Source: Faecalibacter macacae
GTDB lineage: Bacteria; Bacteroidota; Bacteroidia; Flavobacteriales; Weeksellaceae
DNA length: 64,000 bases
Direction of reading: 5' to 3'
NCBI RefSeq assembly: GCF_003687725.1
Contig: NZ_RDOJ01000011.1
Location: 1 to 64,000, forward strand
In this document: positions 2,887 through 53,911 of the stretch, in pieces
Numbering within the stretch: position 1 is the stretch's first letter
Layout of the letters: every line of letters starts with the position of its first letter
Position numbers and translations under genes: made by a program
Notes under the pieces: generated by a model
What the model saw: the letters and a program-made list of their open reading frames with translations, nothing else
Database searches by the model: none
Told to the model about the DNA's origin: nothing

Positions 2887-4167
2887 TTAATTATTTAATC
2901 CTTCCTTGTATGTAGAAATCGCTCTTTGACGAGCAAAATCATGTGGAACGATAGGTTCGATATAATTATTTTCCTCAAAATTTGGAATCCATTTTTTTAT
3001 GTATTTAAAATCTTTATCAAATTTTTGTTGCTGCAACGTGGGATTAAAAACTCTAAAATAAGGAGTCGCATCACAACCCGAACTTGATGCCCATTGCCAA
3101 TTACCAACGTTCGATGCCATTTCGTAATCATTTAATTTTTTAGCAAAATAAGATTCTCCCCAGCGCCAATCGATCAAAAGATGTTTGCAAAGAAAACTAG
3201 CAACAATCATTCTGACACGGTTATGCATAAATCCAGTTGCATTTAATTCTTTCATTCCTGCATCAACAATTGGATAACCGGTTTCTCCTTTACACCAAAG
3301 TTCAAATTCATTTTCGTTATTTCGCCATGAAATATGATCATATTTTGGCTTAAAAGCAGAATATGCAGAATAAGGAAAATGAGCTAAAATTTGAATAAAG
3401 AAATCTCTCCAGATTAATTCATTCAGCCAAGTTTCTAAATTATTTTCGATTGCTATACGAACACATTTACGAATAGAAATAGTTCCGAAACGTAACGGTA
3501 AACTTAATTTACTTGTAGAATCTAAACTCGGAATATCTCTCGTTTCTTTATAATTATGTAAAGAATCGAGTGGGATAGAAGGCTCGCTAAATTCTATATC
3601 TGTTCTATGAAAACCAATTGATTCAAGAGTAGGGAATTCAAAATTTGAAGGATAAAAACTTTCTAAATTAAGTTGAAATGCTTTATAATCATTTGCTGTT
3701 ACCTTTAATTTCCATTGTTTTGAATAAGGCGTAAAAACAGTGTAAGGCGTATTATCTTTCTTTAAAATTTCATCATATTTAAAAATAACATGATCTTTAA
3801 ATTGAAGTAAATTAAAATGTTGTTTTACCTCATTGTCTCGATTTATTCCGTAAGTTTCATAATCTTCGTTACAAAAAATATGTTCAATATTATATTCTTT
3901 TTTTAATTGAAGTAAAACATCAATTGGATTACCATATCTAATTAATAATGATGATTTTAATTGTAAAAGTTCAGTGTTGATATTTTCTAAACTTTGATGA
4001 ATATAATCAACACGACGATCATATTTATCATTTAAATCATCTAAAATATTAGTATCAAAAATAAAAAGTGGAAGTACAGGATTTCCTTGATTTAAGGCAT
4101 GAAATAATCCAATATTATCTTCTAATCTTAAATCTCTTCTAAACCAAAATATATTAATTGTATCCAT
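2887..4167 (-). CDS. phrB: Deoxyribodipyrimidine photolyase (cryptochrome/photolyase family)
   Basis: Repairs UV-induced cyclobutane pyrimidine dimers with blue light, using FAD and an antenna cofactor. The 426-residue protein opens with the class I signature FWFRRDLRLEDN of the Rossmann-like antenna domain. The C-terminal FAD-binding half has the conserved blocks ELIWRDFF, GYPIVDAGMKEL, HNRVRMIVASFL, DWRWGESYF, and the NWQWASSSGCDATPYFRVFN stretch, which includes the Trp pair used in flavin photoreduction and the family's substrate pocket. Start at ATG 4167. It is transcribed alone: a terminator closing the upstream operon lies between it and the peroxidase gene. DASH-type cryptochrome activity is less likely given the standard length and the lack of a C-terminal extension. 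Confidence 0.93.
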   Translation of the reverse strand: MDTINIFWFRRDLRLEDNIGLFHALNQGNPVLPLFIFDTNILDDLNDKYDRRVDYIHQSLENINTELLQLKSSLLIRYGNPIDVLLQLKKEYNIEHIFCNEDYETYGINRDNEVKQHFNLLQFKDHVIFKYDEILKKDNTPYTVFTPYSKQWKLKVTANDYKAFQLNLESFYPSNFEFPTLESIGFHRTDIEFSEPSIPLDSLHNYKETRDIPSLDSTSKLSLPLRFGTISIRKCVRIAIENNLETWLNELIWRDFFIQILAHFPYSAYSAFKPKYDHISWRNNENEFELWCKGETGYPIVDAGMKELNATGFMHNRVRMIVASFLCKHLLIDWRWGESYFAKKLNDYEMASNVGNWQWASSSGCDATPYFRVFNPTLQQQKFDKDFKYIKKWIPNFEENNYIEPIVPHDFARQRAISTYKEGLNN

Positions 4168-4190
4168 TGTATAAATTTAAGTTTTAATAA

Positions 4191-4220
4191 AAAAGCGACT
4201 TTAAAACTAAAGTCGCTTTT
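4191..4220 (-). terminator. Terminator of the receptor-peroxidase operon
   Basis: Perfect 12-bp stem (4191-4202 with 4209-4220), 6-nt loop, with the T-run on the minus strand. It closes the four-gene operon that begins at 11100 and separates it from the photolyase gene. Confidence 0.85.
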
Positions 4221-4245
4221 CAAATTTAATATTTAGAAACCAGAA

Positions 4246-5397
4246 TTATTTTGGTAATTCTGGAGCTCTCATTTTGTATTGATTCTGTTTTAAACTCATT
4301 AAGAAAGATTCTAATGCATCCATTTCTGCTGCATTTAAATTCAATTTCTGAACCAATGGAGAAGTTTTAGGGAATAATGAGTCATTCTTTTGTTTCTCGT
4401 TTGGTTGAAAATGGAACATTCCTGCGTTGTACATATTCAATACACCGCGAATAGTTGGAAATAAACCATTGTGCATATAAGGTGCATTTTGAGGAACTTC
4501 TCTTAATGAAGGCGTTTTAAACTCTCCAACATTTTTAGCTAATTTTGTTGTGTTATAAAAACCTAAATCTTCATATTCACGACCATAGTAAGTTAAACCA
4601 ATATTATGGAATTTACTATCAGAAAATAAAGCTGTATTGTGACAGTTAATACAACGTGCTTTTGTACGGAAAAGGTGTAAACCTTCAACTTCTTGATTAT
4701 TTAATTGCGTAGAATCTCCAGCAATAAATTTATCAAATCTTGTTTTTGGAGATAAAATTGTACGTTGGAATGTTGCTAAAGATTGTACAATTCTTTCGTT
4801 TGTAACTTTGCTATCACCAAAAGCATCTTTAAATAACTTTTTATACCCATCGATTTGACTAATTTTCTTCGTTGCAAAATCGATGTGATGATTCATTTCT
4901 TTAGGATCTTTAATTGGGAAAACCGCTTGCTCTTCTAAAGTAGTAGCGCGACCATCCCAGAACATCGCTTTAGTGTAAGCAACATTCATTAAAGAAATAG
5001 AATTACGAGTACCTTGTTGACGATCTTCTCCATAAGGAACACGTCTTGCATCGCCCCAGTTTTGTTCTGGATCGTGACAGTTGGCACAAGAAATTTGATT
5101 AGAATTTGATAAACGAGGATCAAAAAATAAAGTTTTACCTAAATCTGCTTTTTCTTTAGAATATGGATTGTTTGCAGGAAAAGGAACTTTTCCTAATGTC
5201 CCAATATCCTCAAAACCATCTGCATATACACTTGCATCTACATTTGGTTTTGGCCATTTAGATTGGTCACCACTTGAATATAATGTTTTTAACTGATCAA
5301 TAGTATAACCTTGATCAATTACATTATTAGGTTTTAAAGCTAAAAAAGTAAAAGTAACACCTAGTGCAACTAAAGGAATTGCCTTCTTCATTCTCAT
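4246..5397 (-). CDS. Di-haem cytochrome c peroxidase (MauG/CcpA superfamily)
   Basis: Periplasmic c-type cytochrome with two haem-binding motifs, CANCH (104-108) and CINCH (249-253), after an N-terminal hydrophobic signal/anchor (residues 5-22). The conserved blocks LGKTLFFDPRLS, CHDPEQNW, MFWDGR, FKTPSLRE and YMHNG (307-311) are those of bacterial di-haem peroxidases. Family members either reduce hydrogen peroxide or, like MauG and MbnH, oxidise aromatic residues of a partner protein. It is the last gene of a tight operon, 3 bases after the DUF6850 gene, with a receptor and a lipoprotein upstream; that context makes a dedicated partner plausible but unproven. ATG at 5397; a second ATG two codons on (MKK) is equally good. 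Confidence 0.93.
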   Translation of the reverse strand: MRMKKAIPLVALGVTFTFLALKPNNVIDQGYTIDQLKTLYSSGDQSKWPKPNVDASVYADGFEDIGTLGKVPFPANNPYSKEKADLGKTLFFDPRLSNSNQISCANCHDPEQNWGDARRVPYGEDRQQGTRNSISLMNVAYTKAMFWDGRATTLEEQAVFPIKDPKEMNHHIDFATKKISQIDGYKKLFKDAFGDSKVTNERIVQSLATFQRTILSPKTRFDKFIAGDSTQLNNQEVEGLHLFRTKARCINCHNTALFSDSKFHNIGLTYYGREYEDLGFYNTTKLAKNVGEFKTPSLREVPQNAPYMHNGLFPTIRGVLNMYNAGMFHFQPNEKQKNDSLFPKTSPLVQKLNLNAAEMDALESFLMSLKQNQYKMRAPELPK

Positions 5398-5400
5398 TTA

Positions 5401-7005
5401 TTAATAATTCAACTGAATACCGAAATTAACTTGGTAAGTAGTTTCTGTATTCAAATCAATAGTTTGATTTCTATTTTTATCTAACGCGAAGATACTTCTT
5501 AATTGCGTATATATTACGACATTTTTGTTATTTTTAACAGGTAAAATGTAGCGTACATCGGCTTTTGCGTCCAGTTTATCCATAGAATTGTAAACAAAAT
5601 CGTGTGCGATTACTTCCTTATAAAATACATTATCTGTTGCACCAGTTAAGTTTAAGAAATCTAATTCATTTTTTAAAGCAGTGTAATAATTCAATCCAAC
5701 ACCTACATTAAATTTAGCATCATTTTTAGATTCAATGTCACGATTAGCGTAAATTCCGGCAGTTAATGAATTAATCTTTTGATCTACATAACCCAATTGA
5801 TCCATGTATCTGTTTTGATTATATGCTGCAAATGCACCAACATAATATTTTACAATTTGGTTATTTTGTTTCAATAAATTAACATCAAAAGTAATGTTAC
5901 GCTGACGGTTCATGTAATTAGTTCCTAAAGCTTTAACATCATAATTTTTAGATGTTGTTTTAAAACCACTTAATGAAGAACGTAGTATTTTATCGTTTAT
6001 ATTTTGTTTTAAACGAATTGCTCCTTGATGAGTAATTGTTTGATATTGAAAGCGTTTAAATTTATCATTCATAAACTTATCATCGTAGAAATTCTCTAAA
6101 TTTTCTTGATAAGTATATTGTCCTGATAATAATGTATTTGCTGAATTGTATTGATATCCGGCTCCAGCTTTTTTATACGTTGTACGTGTATAATAACCAG
6201 AAGAATAATTTAAAAATGGTCGATTAATTACACGTCCAAAACCAGAGTTGTAACGTAAATAAGTATCTGGATATGCAATATTATTTAATTGCGAATTACT
6301 GTAATAATATGAGTAATCTTTGTCTTTTACAGCATAACCTGCCAAAGCAAATATTTGATGATTCCCATATGTATAACCTGCATGGATTTCTCCACTTAAT
6401 TTTCTGTTAGAAATTTCTGGTCGTGGATCAACTTCACGCGCTAATTTATTGGCATATAAACCTGCTTTAGCAGCAAGATTAAAATTACCAAAGCTTTTAA
6501 TTACTCCTGCGTTAATATCATATTGTTGATTATTCCAATTAGAAGAACGAGGTACAAAATAATATTGAGGATGTAAAACCTCCATATCATCCGTACGCGT
6601 GTCGTCTAAAGTATATGCTAAATCTTTTTCCGTATATTTTTGTAAATCTATAGAACCAAAAATCTTTAAATCTTCTTTTACATTAAATAAACCTTGACTT
6701 CTAAAACCATATCGCATAGTTTCTGAAGCTGTTTGTTTACGAGCAAATTCATTTTTCTTGAAGTTAAAATAAACTTCAGTTTGAGTAAAATTTTGAATAT
6801 TTTGGTTTGCAAATGTAACAGGAAGTTGTTTTAATTGCGCTAATTCTTGCTCGTATAAAGGATTAGAATCTATCTTGATTGTATCCTTATCTTGAGCAAT
6901 CGCAAAACCACCTAATGTAGTTGCCATTAAGACAAAAACCTTATTTGCATTTTTACGTGCAAATAAGGATATATCGTATGAATTTAAATCTATTTTAGAT
7001 TTCAT
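5401..7005 (-). CDS. DUF6850-type outer-membrane beta-barrel protein
   Basis: 534 residues. A secretion signal (hydrophobic stretch about 23-37, ending FAIAQ) is followed by many alternating aromatic/polar strands with Tyr- and Asn-rich turns, and the last residue is aromatic (VNFGIQLNY), as expected for an outer-membrane barrel folded by BamA. The N-terminus is long for a signal peptide (about 20 residues before the hydrophobic part), so the start may lie downstream at MATTLGG. I place it in the DUF6850 family from its position between a DUF4876 protein and a di-haem peroxidase and from its overall look; a profile search was not possible. Function unknown. It is 15 bases after the DUF4876 gene and 3 bases before the peroxidase gene. 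Confidence 0.8.
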   Translation of the reverse strand: MKSKIDLNSYDISLFARKNANKVFVLMATTLGGFAIAQDKDTIKIDSNPLYEQELAQLKQLPVTFANQNIQNFTQTEVYFNFKKNEFARKQTASETMRYGFRSQGLFNVKEDLKIFGSIDLQKYTEKDLAYTLDDTRTDDMEVLHPQYYFVPRSSNWNNQQYDINAGVIKSFGNFNLAAKAGLYANKLAREVDPRPEISNRKLSGEIHAGYTYGNHQIFALAGYAVKDKDYSYYYSNSQLNNIAYPDTYLRYNSGFGRVINRPFLNYSSGYYTRTTYKKAGAGYQYNSANTLLSGQYTYQENLENFYDDKFMNDKFKRFQYQTITHQGAIRLKQNINDKILRSSLSGFKTTSKNYDVKALGTNYMNRQRNITFDVNLLKQNNQIVKYYVGAFAAYNQNRYMDQLGYVDQKINSLTAGIYANRDIESKNDAKFNVGVGLNYYTALKNELDFLNLTGATDNVFYKEVIAHDFVYNSMDKLDAKADVRYILPVKNNKNVVIYTQLRSIFALDKNRNQTIDLNTETTYQVNFGIQLNY

Positions 7006-7020
7006 TCTTTATTTTTTAAA

Positions 7021-8346
7021 TTAATTAGCAAAAGCTTTTGGTTCAGCTTTTATACTGATAAAGTCTTCTGTAGAATTATTCGTATCCTTTAAAATAATAC
7101 GACCGTTAACAACTTTTTGTGTCTTTCTAATTACAGAAAAAGAACTAAACGCTCCAGCAGGAACGTATGTTACACCAGCGTCGTGCATTGCGTTTAATTT
7201 TTTAGGAACTAAATTATTTCCTAAATCTCTAGTCGTATCTAAACCGTCTAAAATTAAATTATTAGGTATTTGTAAGTATAAACTATTGTTCGCATTACTT
7301 GGGTTACGAAGCTTGTCAAAAGCTGCAACTTCTTCAGCAGAAGCTCTAAAAATAACATATCCATCTCTTCCTTGATTATCCAAAACCATGTCTTGACCTG
7401 AAACCCAATGTACAATTTCTAAATCTGGAACATTTGGATTTTGAATATCATAGCGGAATTGATTTCCTGTGTATGAAGTCAAATTCGCTTCAAAATCTGC
7501 GTTAGATAAATCAACAGTTAATTCAGGTTCTTGAATACTAACTGAATTTCCATTATTATCTGTATAATTTGATTTATGATTAATTGCTGTTGCTGCAATT
7601 GTAATACTTTCTCCTGGCTGAATTGGATACTGTTGTCCTGAACCCGGAATACGATAAACTGCATCTGCGTATACATAATCTGTATTAGCAGCGTTACCTT
7701 TTGTATTTCCTTCGCTCATTGCCCAATTTAATTGCCCAGAAGGTAAGTGGAAAGGATCAGTTCCAACTGTATTATTTCCAAATAATTGAGCGAAAATTAA
7801 ACCATCAGCATATATAACTTCAGCCGAATTATTATAAATCTCTACGAATTGATCACGAAAAGATGCAGCTCTTGTTGTATGTGAACCTGCATAATAAACT
7901 TGTTTAATCACTAAACCACCAATTGTATTGGCTGAGAAGATTTCTACTGTAATTGTAGTTCCGCTTGATAAAATATCAATATTCTGTGTTACACCATTAA
8001 AAACAATATACTCATCCGAACCTGAATCATACCCAAAGTATTCCTCAAATTGAGTAGGAGTTAATGTAAAGTTTACAGTTGCTGAATATTTTCCTGGTAA
8101 AACTGCTGGTAAAACATAATTTCCGTTCGCGTCTGTAACGCCAATATATTCTACACCAGTATCAACATTTCTGAAAATTACATTGGCATTAACTGCATTT
8201 TTATCTGTAACAAAATCACCACCAAATTTAACATGCGCTGTAACACTTACAGGAGATAAATTCATCCCACCAAAATCATCATCCATACATGAGTTGAATA
8301 ATAATCCTGCGATAAAAGGTGTTAATAATAGTAACTTTTTATACAT
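7021..8346 (-). CDS. DUF4876 lipoprotein, probably surface-exposed
   Basis: 441-residue lipoprotein with a short signal and lipobox (LLFNSC, acylated Cys20). The residues right after the Cys are Met-Asp-Asp-Asp, an acidic run like the lipoprotein export signal that sends Bacteroidota lipoproteins to the cell surface. Residues about 35-95 form a carboxypeptidase-regulatory-like beta-sandwich (VDTGVEYIGVTDANGNYVLP), and about 142-190 resemble a lamin-tail-like fold (GGLVIKQVYYAG, FVEIYNNSAEV). Only two Trp were seen in the first 320 residues (208, 314). The gene is second in the operon, 21 bases after the receptor. Known for the family: Bacteroidota, function undetermined. Inferred: a surface partner of the receptor, and possibly a substrate of the co-transcribed peroxidase. 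Confidence 0.85.
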   Translation of the reverse strand: MYKKLLLLTPFIAGLLFNSCMDDDFGGMNLSPVSVTAHVKFGGDFVTDKNAVNANVIFRNVDTGVEYIGVTDANGNYVLPAVLPGKYSATVNFTLTPTQFEEYFGYDSGSDEYIVFNGVTQNIDILSSGTTITVEIFSANTIGGLVIKQVYYAGSHTTRAASFRDQFVEIYNNSAEVIYADGLIFAQLFGNNTVGTDPFHLPSGQLNWAMSEGNTKGNAANTDYVYADAVYRIPGSGQQYPIQPGESITIAATAINHKSNYTDNNGNSVSIQEPELTVDLSNADFEANLTSYTGNQFRYDIQNPNVPDLEIVHWVSGQDMVLDNQGRDGYVIFRASAEEVAAFDKLRNPSNANNSLYLQIPNNLILDGLDTTRDLGNNLVPKKLNAMHDAGVTYVPAGAFSSFSVIRKTQKVVNGRIILKDTNNSTEDFISIKAEPKAFAN

Positions 8347-8367
8347 TATATTGTTTTTTCTAGTTTA

Positions 8368-11100
8368 TTAAAAAGAGTATTCTAATTTTCCTCCTAAAGA
8401 AAATTGAGCAATTGGATAAATTTGTTTTACACCATTTGTATCATAATAAGTCGGTTTTAAACCTAATACATTTGTCGTGTAAACAGAAACTTTAAATCCA
8501 TTCATAAAATCCTTCGATAATCTTAAATGAACATTATGAATCGAATTTTGTAGACTTTGATCTCCTTTAACAGGTGTCTTGATTAAATGTCCGTACAAAT
8601 CTGTATTCGTTTGATCTGCAACCGGAATTGCATGATATTGCATTTGTTCATCTAAATATCCTATTGGAAATCTATCTTGGTTACGATTATGATTCATTAA
8701 CAAGATATGTTCTGTTCTAAGAGATAACAATAATCCTACTTTGCGTAAATGATAATTAAAATTAGACCCAAGTGTTAATTGGTCTGTCTTAGAAACTAGT
8801 GCATTATAAACTGCATATTTTTCTGGTTCTGTAATCACAGAAGAAATAGAATATTCAGTCTTATTTGGCGTATTTGTTGTTTTTATATACGAAGCATTTA
8901 CTTGTATATCTAAGTTTAAAGGTTTGATACGATTAAATGTCATAAACGCTTCTAAACCTAAATCTTCAGATTGTAAATTATTTCTTAATTCGCTTGCGAA
9001 GAAACCAATATTCTCTTGTCCAATTACAGTGTAAGAGGCTGGAGTAGTGGTAGTATCTAATGCGATTTGACTAATAGTTCTGTAAAATGGATCTGAAATA
9101 GAAGAAATTCCGTCCGTCATTTTATTGTAAAAACCTGTCAGGTTTAATGTACCAAATTTGAAGTTTAAATCAGCTCCAAATTCTGTGTTCATTGAACGAA
9201 TTGGTTTTAAATCTGGATTATCAGCAGGTAATTCAAAAGTCTGAATCCAACCAATTAATCCAGTTCCAGGAACAGAATAAATTCCGTCACCTAATAAATA
9301 ATCATAGTAACGATTTCCAGTATATAATTGATTTAATGATGGTGTTTTACTTGCCATACCAAATCCTCCGCGTAAGCGTAAGAATTTGTTAAAAGCATAA
9401 GAAGTATTTACACGTGGTTGAAACGTTGAAAATCCTAATTGATTTTCGTAACGTAAACCTAAATCAAGTTTTAATACTGCATCATTTTCATAATATTTTG
9501 TGATTTGATCTTCCGCATACGCAGAAAATTGAAATACAGTTTTAGTATTTCTAAAGTTATAATCACGGTATCCTAAACTTCCGCCAGCTCCACTTAAAGT
9601 AAGATAATTAGGAACGCCGTTACCTGTTGTATAACGTCCGCGTCCTTTATTTGCACTTGTTCTAGTAGAAATACCCGCAGAAATCGTATGTATCCATTGG
9701 TTTTTACTTTTAATCGATTTATTACCTTCTAAGTTTAAATAAGTAGAAACTGGAATTCCTTCCACATTCATGTTATAAAAATATTGAGAAGGAACTATAA
9801 TCGCTTGATGAATTCCATCAGTTGTAGCATCAGTAATCGCTGCATTACCTAAATTACGCCATTCTTCTTTGTAAGAATTTGACTTTTCATAATTAAGATT
9901 TGCATCAATATTAAACGTATCAATCCAAGATTTGTTAAAATTCCATTTTAAATTATTTGAAATTCGGATTGAAGTACGATCATCTTTTACCTTCGCATCA
10001 GAAAAATCATCTGGATTACTTTTTAATTCATCATTACGGTAACCAATATTTGCTGTAAGCGTATTGGTTAGAGTAGTTGCTGCATTATTCGTTTTCCAAG
10101 AAATATTTCCGTTGATACGGTTATATTTAGTTAAGCTATTTCTTGGATCTGAATTAGATTCTAAAAAGTTTATTTGAGTATTAATAAAGTTACGAGAACT
10201 TAATTTAAATCCTTTAGATAAATTGTATTCAGTTGTAGCATCTCTCATAGAAATCGATGCACGGTAAGGAGTTTCACCAACTTTGGTTTGAACTAAAATT
10301 AAGCCAGAAGTCATGTCACCATATTTTGCTGGCGCAATACCTTGAATTACTTTAATCTCTTCGATATTATTTGTAGGAACTTCTCTTAAATCGAAACCAT
10401 AATTTGCGTTAGAGAAAGTGTTTTCAGATCCATCTCCAAAAGTATTTCCGGAATTATAGCTAAATGCTCCCGAAGTATTAGGAGAAAAGGTTTGCATATT
10501 CTCGTTATTAGACAACGGAATATCATTAACTACGATTGATGTACCAAACGCACGATTGGCAAAGTAATCTTGTCTATCGCCACTAGCATTTGATAATTTA
10601 GTAATGTTTGCATTATTATTTGCCGTACGGAAAACAATATTTTTGAACTGATTGTTATTAAAGTCAGGCGTAAACTGACCAGGTAACTGTTCTAAAACTT
10701 CGTTAATAGAAAATGCTTGTACATTTTCAATCGCTTCTTTTCCTAAAACAATTTCAGAATATTCTTTTTTACGTTTTGGAAAGATAACAACTTCTTCTAA
10801 ACGTAAATTTTGTTTAAAAAGAGTAGTAGTTACATTATTAAAATCTGGATCAACAAAAACTTCAATTAAATCTTTACCTAATTGAGAAATAAGTAATGTT
10901 GTATTTTCACTTGAGACTTCTAATTGATAAGTTCCATCTTCTTTTGTATGCGTCCATTTTTTACTAATCGGTTCTTGAACCAATACGTTAGATAATGGTT
11001 TATTATTCTCGTCAACTACTTTTCCTGTAATAGTCTTCTGAGCCTGTAAACTTGATAACGTACCAAGTAATAAACCTAGTGTAAATAACCCTTTTTTCAT
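8368..11100 (-). CDS. TonB-dependent receptor with carboxypeptidase-like N-terminal domain
   Basis: Outer-membrane active transporter powered by TonB-ExbBD. After the signal peptide (MKKGLFTLGLLLGTLSSLQA) come a CarboxypepD_reg-like domain (ITGKVVDENNKPLSNVLVQE), a plug (INEVLEQLPGQF, IEEIKVIQGIAPAKYGDMTSG) and a roughly 650-residue barrel ending in the aromatic motif GKLEYSF. It has no SusD partner, so it is not a polysaccharide-type SusC pair. The reading frame can be extended to a TTG at 11121, but that TTG is part of the TAnnTTTG promoter element, so I start at ATG 11100 (910 residues). It is the first gene of an operon with a lipoprotein, a barrel and a di-haem peroxidase; the ligand is unknown, and metal-related cargo is a reasonable guess. 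Confidence 0.93.
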   Translation of the reverse strand: MKKGLFTLGLLLGTLSSLQAQKTITGKVVDENNKPLSNVLVQEPISKKWTHTKEDGTYQLEVSSENTTLLISQLGKDLIEVFVDPDFNNVTTTLFKQNLRLEEVVIFPKRKKEYSEIVLGKEAIENVQAFSINEVLEQLPGQFTPDFNNNQFKNIVFRTANNNANITKLSNASGDRQDYFANRAFGTSIVVNDIPLSNNENMQTFSPNTSGAFSYNSGNTFGDGSENTFSNANYGFDLREVPTNNIEEIKVIQGIAPAKYGDMTSGLILVQTKVGETPYRASISMRDATTEYNLSKGFKLSSRNFINTQINFLESNSDPRNSLTKYNRINGNISWKTNNAATTLTNTLTANIGYRNDELKSNPDDFSDAKVKDDRTSIRISNNLKWNFNKSWIDTFNIDANLNYEKSNSYKEEWRNLGNAAITDATTDGIHQAIIVPSQYFYNMNVEGIPVSTYLNLEGNKSIKSKNQWIHTISAGISTRTSANKGRGRYTTGNGVPNYLTLSGAGGSLGYRDYNFRNTKTVFQFSAYAEDQITKYYENDAVLKLDLGLRYENQLGFSTFQPRVNTSYAFNKFLRLRGGFGMASKTPSLNQLYTGNRYYDYLLGDGIYSVPGTGLIGWIQTFELPADNPDLKPIRSMNTEFGADLNFKFGTLNLTGFYNKMTDGISSISDPFYRTISQIALDTTTTPASYTVIGQENIGFFASELRNNLQSEDLGLEAFMTFNRIKPLNLDIQVNASYIKTTNTPNKTEYSISSVITEPEKYAVYNALVSKTDQLTLGSNFNYHLRKVGLLLSLRTEHILLMNHNRNQDRFPIGYLDEQMQYHAIPVADQTNTDLYGHLIKTPVKGDQSLQNSIHNVHLRLSKDFMNGFKVSVYTTNVLGLKPTYYDTNGVKQIYPIAQFSLGGKLEYSF

Positions 11101-11118
11101 TATAACTGAATTCGGGTG

Positions 11119-11149
11119 CAAATTTATTTTAAATTAATCTAAATAGCAA
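11119..11149 (-). promoter_or_regulatory. Promoter of the TonB-receptor operon
   Basis: On the minus strand TTG (11147-11149) is followed after 20 bases by TAAATTTG (11119-11126), the Bacteroidota sigma-A type -33/-7 pair. Transcription would begin about 6-7 bases further on, leaving a leader of roughly 12 bases before ATG 11100. No Fur-like palindrome is evident next to it. Confidence 0.75.
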
Positions 11150-53458: not shown

Positions 53459-53911
53459 TTATTTAGATTTCTTTTTCCCGTAAAAATATAACGAGTGATT
53501 TTCGATTTCGATATCAAAAATTTCTTCAATCGTTTTCTTGATTGTTTGAATACGTGGATCACAAAACTCTAACACTTCTCCTGTATCAGTTAAAATAATG
53601 TGATCGTGATTTTTATCGAAATATGATTTCTCGTAATGAGCTTGTTGATCTCCAAATTGATGCTTACGCACAAGTTTAGCTTCCATTAATAATTCGATTG
53701 TATTATATAATGTAGCACGACTTACACGGTATTTTTTATTTTTCATTTTGATATACAACATATCAATATCAAAATGGTCATCTGTAAAATATATTTCTTC
53801 TAAAATAGCATAACGTTCTGGCGTCTTACGGTGTCCATTATCTTCTAAGAACTTTGTAAATACTTGTTTTACCGTTTCGTAATTGCTTAATTTTACTGAT
53901 TCGTCTGTCAT
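53459..53911 (-). CDS. Fur-family transcriptional regulator
   Basis: 150-residue metal-dependent repressor. Winged helix with [13 protein letters not shown] and [28 protein letters not shown]; the dimerisation part has [30 protein letters not shown] with the metal-site HDH. The CxxC pairs of structural-zinc Fur are absent (only one Cys, in EFCDPRI), as in many flavobacterial homologues. It may be Fur itself, Zur or PerR; the lack of Cys4 argues against Zur. It is upstream of and probably co-transcribed with the OstA-like gene. Confidence 0.9.

Follow-up and report, generated by a model that had tools for sequence, protein, structure and literature searches.

The first 64,000 nucleotides of Faecalibacter macacae contig NZ_RDOJ01000011.1 (the whole stretch analysed, hereafter the window) carry a four-gene operon that forms a single uptake unit and encodes a TonB-dependent outer-membrane receptor, a DUF4876 lipoprotein, a DUF6850 beta-barrel and a di-haem enzyme of the MauG/cytochrome c peroxidase (CCP) superfamily. 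The operon is probably controlled by iron, and we tentatively propose that it is a TonB uptake system in which the cargo or its carrier undergoes peroxide-dependent oxidation in the periplasm.

Open reading frames and Pfam assignments reproduced the four-gene operon that an earlier reading of the letters alone (the sequence-only reading) had described, with intergenic gaps of 21, 15 and 3 bases; all features of the operon lie on the minus strand. The receptor, which has a CarbopepD_reg_2 N-terminal extension (PF07715, PF00593, PF13715), spans 8368..11121 with its likely start at the ATG at 11100, followed by the 441-residue DUF4876 surface-type lipoprotein (7021..8346), the DUF6850 outer-membrane beta-barrel (5401..7005) and the di-haem enzyme with two CxxCH motifs and an N-terminal signal or anchor (4246..5397). 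The peroxidase of the closest named relative, Faecalibacter rhinopitheci, is 85% identical. An intrinsic terminator (hairpin and T run, 4190..4221) closes the operon and is as strong as first supposed, with a folding energy of -16.6 kcal/mol (z = -5.0) and none of 200 shuffles equally good. A promoter is predicted at 11119..11149 (TTG-N20-TAAATTTG) and matches the Bacteroidota form TTG-N20-TAnnTTTG. This form fits the earlier promoter call and a conserved 23-bp palindrome sits on it, but the consensus alone is not enriched in the AT-rich window (13 found, approximately 15 expected).

The palindrome was found by growing motifs from words enriched in receptor upstream regions, with no preset consensus, and has the 7-1-7 geometry of the Fur family (TTATTTAGAATAATTCTAAATAA, TTAGAAT-n-ATTCTAA). 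Of 109 receptor upstream regions, 74 have a match above threshold, and none of the shuffles does; among peroxidase operons with an intact receptor, the palindrome precedes 63 of 64 that have the long, type A DUF4876 of the window and 6 of 8 others (69/72 in total). The 64 kb of the window contain a single copy, CTATTTAGATTAATTTAAAATAA, at 11124..11146 on the minus strand, where it overlaps the promoter between the -33 and -7 elements. The F. macacae genome (G000) has 21 operator sites vs 6 in the control and a Chryseobacterium-like genome (G277) has 20 vs 3, and in both genomes such sites stand upstream of feoAB, siderophore and other TonB receptors and an enterochelin-esterase-like gene. A second receptor-DUF4876-DUF6850 triad in the F. 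macacae genome is also preceded by such sites. As a 7-1-7 palindrome located at iron genes, the element is a putative Fur-type operator, judged by sequence, and because it is common to feoAB and siderophore receptors, we consider the operon probably iron-controlled. None of the genes recognised at the operator sites examined is a peroxide-response gene, and the context of the operator points to iron, not to copper or peroxide. The genome has three Fur-family genes, one of which lies in the window outside the operon (53459..53911, minus strand; PF01475, 88.6 bits) and encodes a candidate repressor. The operator model was trained mainly on Flavobacteriia, so little can be concluded where a distant lineage lacks the motif. 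The Escherichia coli Fur consensus (GATAATGATAATCATTATC) was also tried and gave upstream scores no better than shuffles. Elsewhere in the F. macacae genome, two Fur-type operators lie between a divergently transcribed TonB receptor gene and a gene for a secreted ankyrin-repeat protein (contig C2, L227:1535-5646), which suggests that this pair is iron-regulated.

Published expression data for related loci agree with iron control. In Porphyromonas gingivalis, PG1019-22 is up 21- to 214-fold under iron deficiency, which also induces BT1933-39 and, strongly, BT3625-33 of Bacteroides thetaiotaomicron (PMC10434189), and the DUF4876 gene of P. gingivalis responds strongly to haemin (PMC10470040). 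Like the operon, these Bacteroidales iron-starvation loci place a DUF4876 lipoprotein beside a TonB receptor, and the loci surveyed here add the DUF6850 barrel to that pair. Unlike the operon, the published loci have no di-haem peroxidase named in them, and some have HEAT-repeat or PepSY/ABC proteins instead. The main-text passages found on the Elizabethkingia iron transcriptome name no gene of the operon (PMC7221216).

The di-haem enzyme belongs to the CCP/MauG superfamily (PF03150, 183.7 bits vs a cut-off of 25.6). Haem motif 1 (C104-xx-C107-H108; 5074..5088, minus strand) is conserved in 86 of 86 aligned rows that cover the site, and haem motif 2 (C249-xx-C252-H253; 4639..4653, minus strand) in 87 of 87. 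Its best whole-length match of known structure is a bacterial cytochrome c peroxidase, that of Nitrosomonas europaea (1iqc, E 7e-49), with which it shares the two CxxCH motifs and the Glu of the EM motif, while over its C-terminal part the best alignments are to MbnH and MauG. Tyr323 (codon 4429..4431, minus strand) is invariant in 87 of 87 subfamily members and aligns with Tyr294 of MauG, the known axial ligand of the second haem; MbnH (6e1c) also has Tyr in this column. Classical cytochrome c peroxidases have at this position a Met as axial ligand of the high-potential haem and lack the operon-bound partners of the enzyme. The replacement of Met by Tyr suggests chemistry of the MauG/MbnH type, and we regard the enzyme as MauG/MbnH-like with predicted Tyr ligation, in keeping with the sequence-only reading, and not as a classical peroxidase. 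It falls well below the cut-offs of both the MauG equivalog (TIGR03791, 232 bits vs 443.85) and MbnH (TIGR04039, 222.1 bits vs 362.85) and is therefore neither. MbnH oxidises a Trp of MbnP, and some MauG-superfamily enzymes act on proteins. The enzyme shares with MauG the di-haem fold and a conserved inter-haem Trp motif (WDGR), but no methylamine dehydrogenase was seen in the loci, though no search was aimed at one. The MbnH/MbnP system similarly combines a di-haem enzyme having Tyr at the axial position with a partner protein and a TonB receptor; unlike it, the operon has DUF4876 as the partner, an iron-type operator and no copper signal, and the genes adjoining the enzyme encode DUF6850, DUF4876 and the TonB receptor, with no MbnP.

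A PDB search gave no solved relative for the receptor at E<=0.01. The operon resembles SusC/SusD systems in pairing a CarbopepD_reg_2 TonB receptor with a surface lipoprotein, but the score of the receptor against the SusC model (39.6 bits) is below the cut-off of 368.25 and SusD is absent from the operon. The DUF6850 protein (PF21012, 185.6 bits) is predicted by AlphaFold (pLDDT 86.5) to have approximately 18 long strands and no plug, and its Foldseek matches are distant and generic (TonB receptors, FadL, AlgE). No NCBIfam model matches either the DUF4876 or the DUF6850 protein of the operon.

Receptor, DUF4876 and DUF6850 form a fixed triad across Bacteroidota. In a phylum survey of 296 genomes, DUF4876 was found in 29 and DUF6850 above cut-off in 29, almost the same genomes, and approximately 38 extracted loci have the order receptor, DUF4876, DUF6850 in nearly all cases; the two DUF families paired in the window nearly always occur together. 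The peroxidase is a dedicated subfamily added to this triad in aerobic lineages, among them Chryseobacterium, Elizabethkingia, Flavobacterium, Capnocytophaga and Empedobacter. A model built from seven operonic enzymes scores subfamily members at 448 to 653 bits vs at most 290 for all other MauG/CCP relatives. Among the closest 80 peroxidase relatives, taken from a search of 84,980 species, 66 have all four genes together at the locus. Gene order is identical in all 77 complete four-gene units measured and the gap is at most 60 bases in 71 of them. A class survey of 395 genomes found the subfamily in 10, DUF4876 in 12 and both in 7 (p = 3e-10), so that the co-occurrence check proposed with the sequence-only reading came out in its favour. 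Five of six stand-alone subfamily copies are in genomes that have DUF4876 elsewhere. The association spans Flavobacteriia, Rufibacter (Hymenobacteraceae) and genomes from other classes of the phylum, and many triad-bearing lineages are without the peroxidase subfamily altogether.

A sister clade of the enzyme is located in operons of another kind. Nine loci (L162, L168, L175, L176, L178, L179, L180, L199 and L200) have the order FecR, SusC, SusD, unknown lipoprotein, peroxidase, with SusC and SusD assigned by Pfam on parts of three loci and by gene size and order for the remainder. These operons are often trailed by a protein sorted by the type IX secretion system, DUF4876 is absent from all seven sister-clade genomes tested, and a Fur-type operator is present at L178, L199 and L200 (at least three loci). 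The enzyme clade therefore occurs also in SusC/SusD operons, some with the operator, and the element shared by the two settings is iron-linked uptake and not DUF4876.

In the mechanism that we propose, iron limitation would cause a Fur-family repressor, whose identity and response we infer, to leave the promoter palindrome, and the four genes would be made as one transcript. The DUF4876 lipoprotein on the cell surface would help the TonB receptor to capture an iron-containing cargo, with the DUF6850 protein acting as a putative accessory 18-stranded barrel of the outer membrane. The di-haem enzyme, predicted to be exported to the periplasm, would oxidise the cargo or its carrier after import, with hydrogen peroxide (H2O2) as oxidant, and the iron would be released or kept available. 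The peroxidase may have been added in aerobes to an older triad that elsewhere functions without the enzyme. It is also possible, with about the same reserve, that a dedicated MauG-type oxidase family provides a peroxide-dependent step in TonB-dependent iron uptake, in which it would oxidise the imported iron carrier, or the surface receptor complex, in the periplasm, and that it was recruited by two unrelated outer-membrane machines (TonB-DUF4876-DUF6850 and SusC-SusD). Oxidation of the cargo is preferred here over maturation of the lipoprotein on two grounds: a single enzyme family works with two unrelated receptor machines, and it seems to be absent where there is no oxygen. Several points weigh against cargo oxidation. 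Its only grounds are elimination and the Tyr ligand, the receptor has no solved relative that would point to a cargo, and the literature search turned up neither expression nor biochemical measurements for any operon with the peroxidase. A two-haem enzyme also costs iron. Finally, one enzyme (L197) has an RND efflux neighbour by Pfam and no TonB locus, and a few further relatives are likewise outside any TonB locus.

The remaining serious rival, though we think it rather unlikely, is that the enzyme removes H2O2 at the point of iron entry with a cytochrome as donor and so limits Fenton damage. Haem and iron import bring oxidative risk, the gene appears confined to lineages that meet oxygen, and the nearest whole-length structures are, as noted, bacterial cytochrome c peroxidases. 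However, the invariant Tyr in place of the classical Met makes cytochromes less likely as electron donors, the operator is part of an iron regulon with no peroxide-response gene recognised at the sites examined, and general protection would not need so tight an operon link.

Modification of the lipoprotein by the peroxidase, as put forward in the sequence-only reading, is somewhat less probable still and in our view unlikely. Here the enzyme would oxidise Trp208 or another DUF4876 residue in the periplasm before the protein is flipped to the surface, making a metal or ligand site. The lipoprotein (PF16215, 108.6 bits; AlphaFold pLDDT 88) is related over its full length to the sole solved DUF4876 protein, BT_1938 (PDB 4q1z), and has a lipobox Cys20 followed by MDDDFGG; of 95 relatives whose lipobox was recognised, 71 have at least two acidic residues at +2 to +7, which upholds the surface-export signal read from the window. 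DUF4876 proteins are of two types, the long type A of the window and a short type B, and those outside the window protein's own clade are approximately 22-37% identical to it. Trp208 (codon 7723..7725, minus strand) lies in a loop, GQ[FLY][DN]W, that is invariant in 76 of 76 type A units; the peroxidase adjoins 71 of these, and the subfamily is present elsewhere in the same genome for the other 5. Most type A units were gathered through enzyme searches, and the phylum and class surveys are the fairer sample; in these, every genome with type A has the enzyme subfamily. The predicted Tyr-ligated haem, as in MauG and in the MbnP-modifying MbnH, would also suit such a reaction.

Type A is, however, one clade, and the correlation of Trp208 with the peroxidase is therefore not independent evidence. 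Type B proteins linked to a peroxidase lack both the loop and Trp208, and among the Trp, Tyr, Met, His and Cys columns of the receptor, DUF4876 and DUF6850, none tracks the peroxidase across types A and B; for these reasons oxidation of the lipoprotein is not supported as the general function of the subfamily. The sister clade in operons and genomes without DUF4876 and the many triads in lineages without the enzyme also argue against it, as does the response of DUF4876 loci to iron starvation in anaerobes (PMC10434189). Oxidation of Trp208 is conceivable for type A only and cannot be a subfamily-wide function. Of the two residues singled out at the start, Trp208 thus behaved as expected within type A, always with the enzyme in the genome, but is missing from type B, and Trp314 varies (conserved in 58 of 74) and was rejected as a universal oxidation target. 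In two other loci, DUF4876 genes are tandemly duplicated or triplicated beside a single receptor and a single DUF6850 gene (L208:7625-11748 and L202:8368-10894).

That the peroxidase is merely co-transcribed, with no functional tie to uptake, is very improbable. Triads without it are common in many lineages and stand-alone copies of the enzyme exist; against this, gene order is the same in 77 of 77 units, mostly with a gap of no more than 60 bases, the association is kept across classes, and the other large partner group of the enzyme is also a TonB-dependent operon. Past the terminator, on the operon's strand and as separate units, lie genes for a photolyase (2887-4167) and a CopA-type copper ATPase (143-2551). 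Copper-peptide uptake like that of methanobactin by MbnT/MbnP/MbnH, the analogy first drawn for this operon, is the least probable explanation and very improbable, since the combination of a di-haem enzyme, a surface or periplasmic partner and a TonB receptor in one operon and the CopA gene 1.7 kb away are outweighed by an operator common to feoAB and siderophore receptors, the missed MbnH cut-off, a partner that is not MbnP, the photolyase gene and terminator between CopA and the operon, and the induction of relatives by iron or haemin depletion (PMC10434189, PMC10470040).

Both DUF4876-TonB loci under iron control and MauG-like enzymes have been described before, but separately. In open-access full text we found no description of the four-gene version, of the operator or of the SusC/SusD partnership of the enzyme, and no paper mentioning DUF6850 or the linkage of the peroxidase; DUF4876 itself gave three hits. 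BfpR and HfpR of Flavobacterium psychrophilum were considered and represent another arrangement, BfpR beside asd and HfpR beside hfpY (PMC9331221). In Bacteroidota of medical and ecological importance, few genes respond to iron as strongly as the DUF4876-TonB loci; a dedicated MauG-type oxidase under a Fur-type operator offers a genetic handle on the transported cargo and suggests that iron acquisition can include an oxidation that the literature searched does not describe. The operator consensus can also be used for predicting iron regulons across Flavobacteriia.

Other lineages have a secreted protein of approximately 740 residues with C-terminal HEAT repeats beside the triad, in the place of the peroxidase (L085:3531-5759, L087:12715-14925, L093:13397-15667, L089:1017-3242 and L071:12165-14420). 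A PDB search recognised its HEAT part alone, with no match for the N-terminal half; by eye, its His/Cys motifs recall clan CD peptidases, a resemblance backed by no database match. The second triad of the F. macacae genome (contig C46, L061:7964-13626) has a type B DUF4876 that is 29% identical to that of the window, two Fur-type operators upstream and no adjacent peroxidase. A decayed third copy (contig C12, L062:9362-11653) consists of receptor fragments and a C-terminal piece of DUF6850 without DUF4876; two operators still lie upstream of it, and genes for two large HEAT-repeat proteins come after it.

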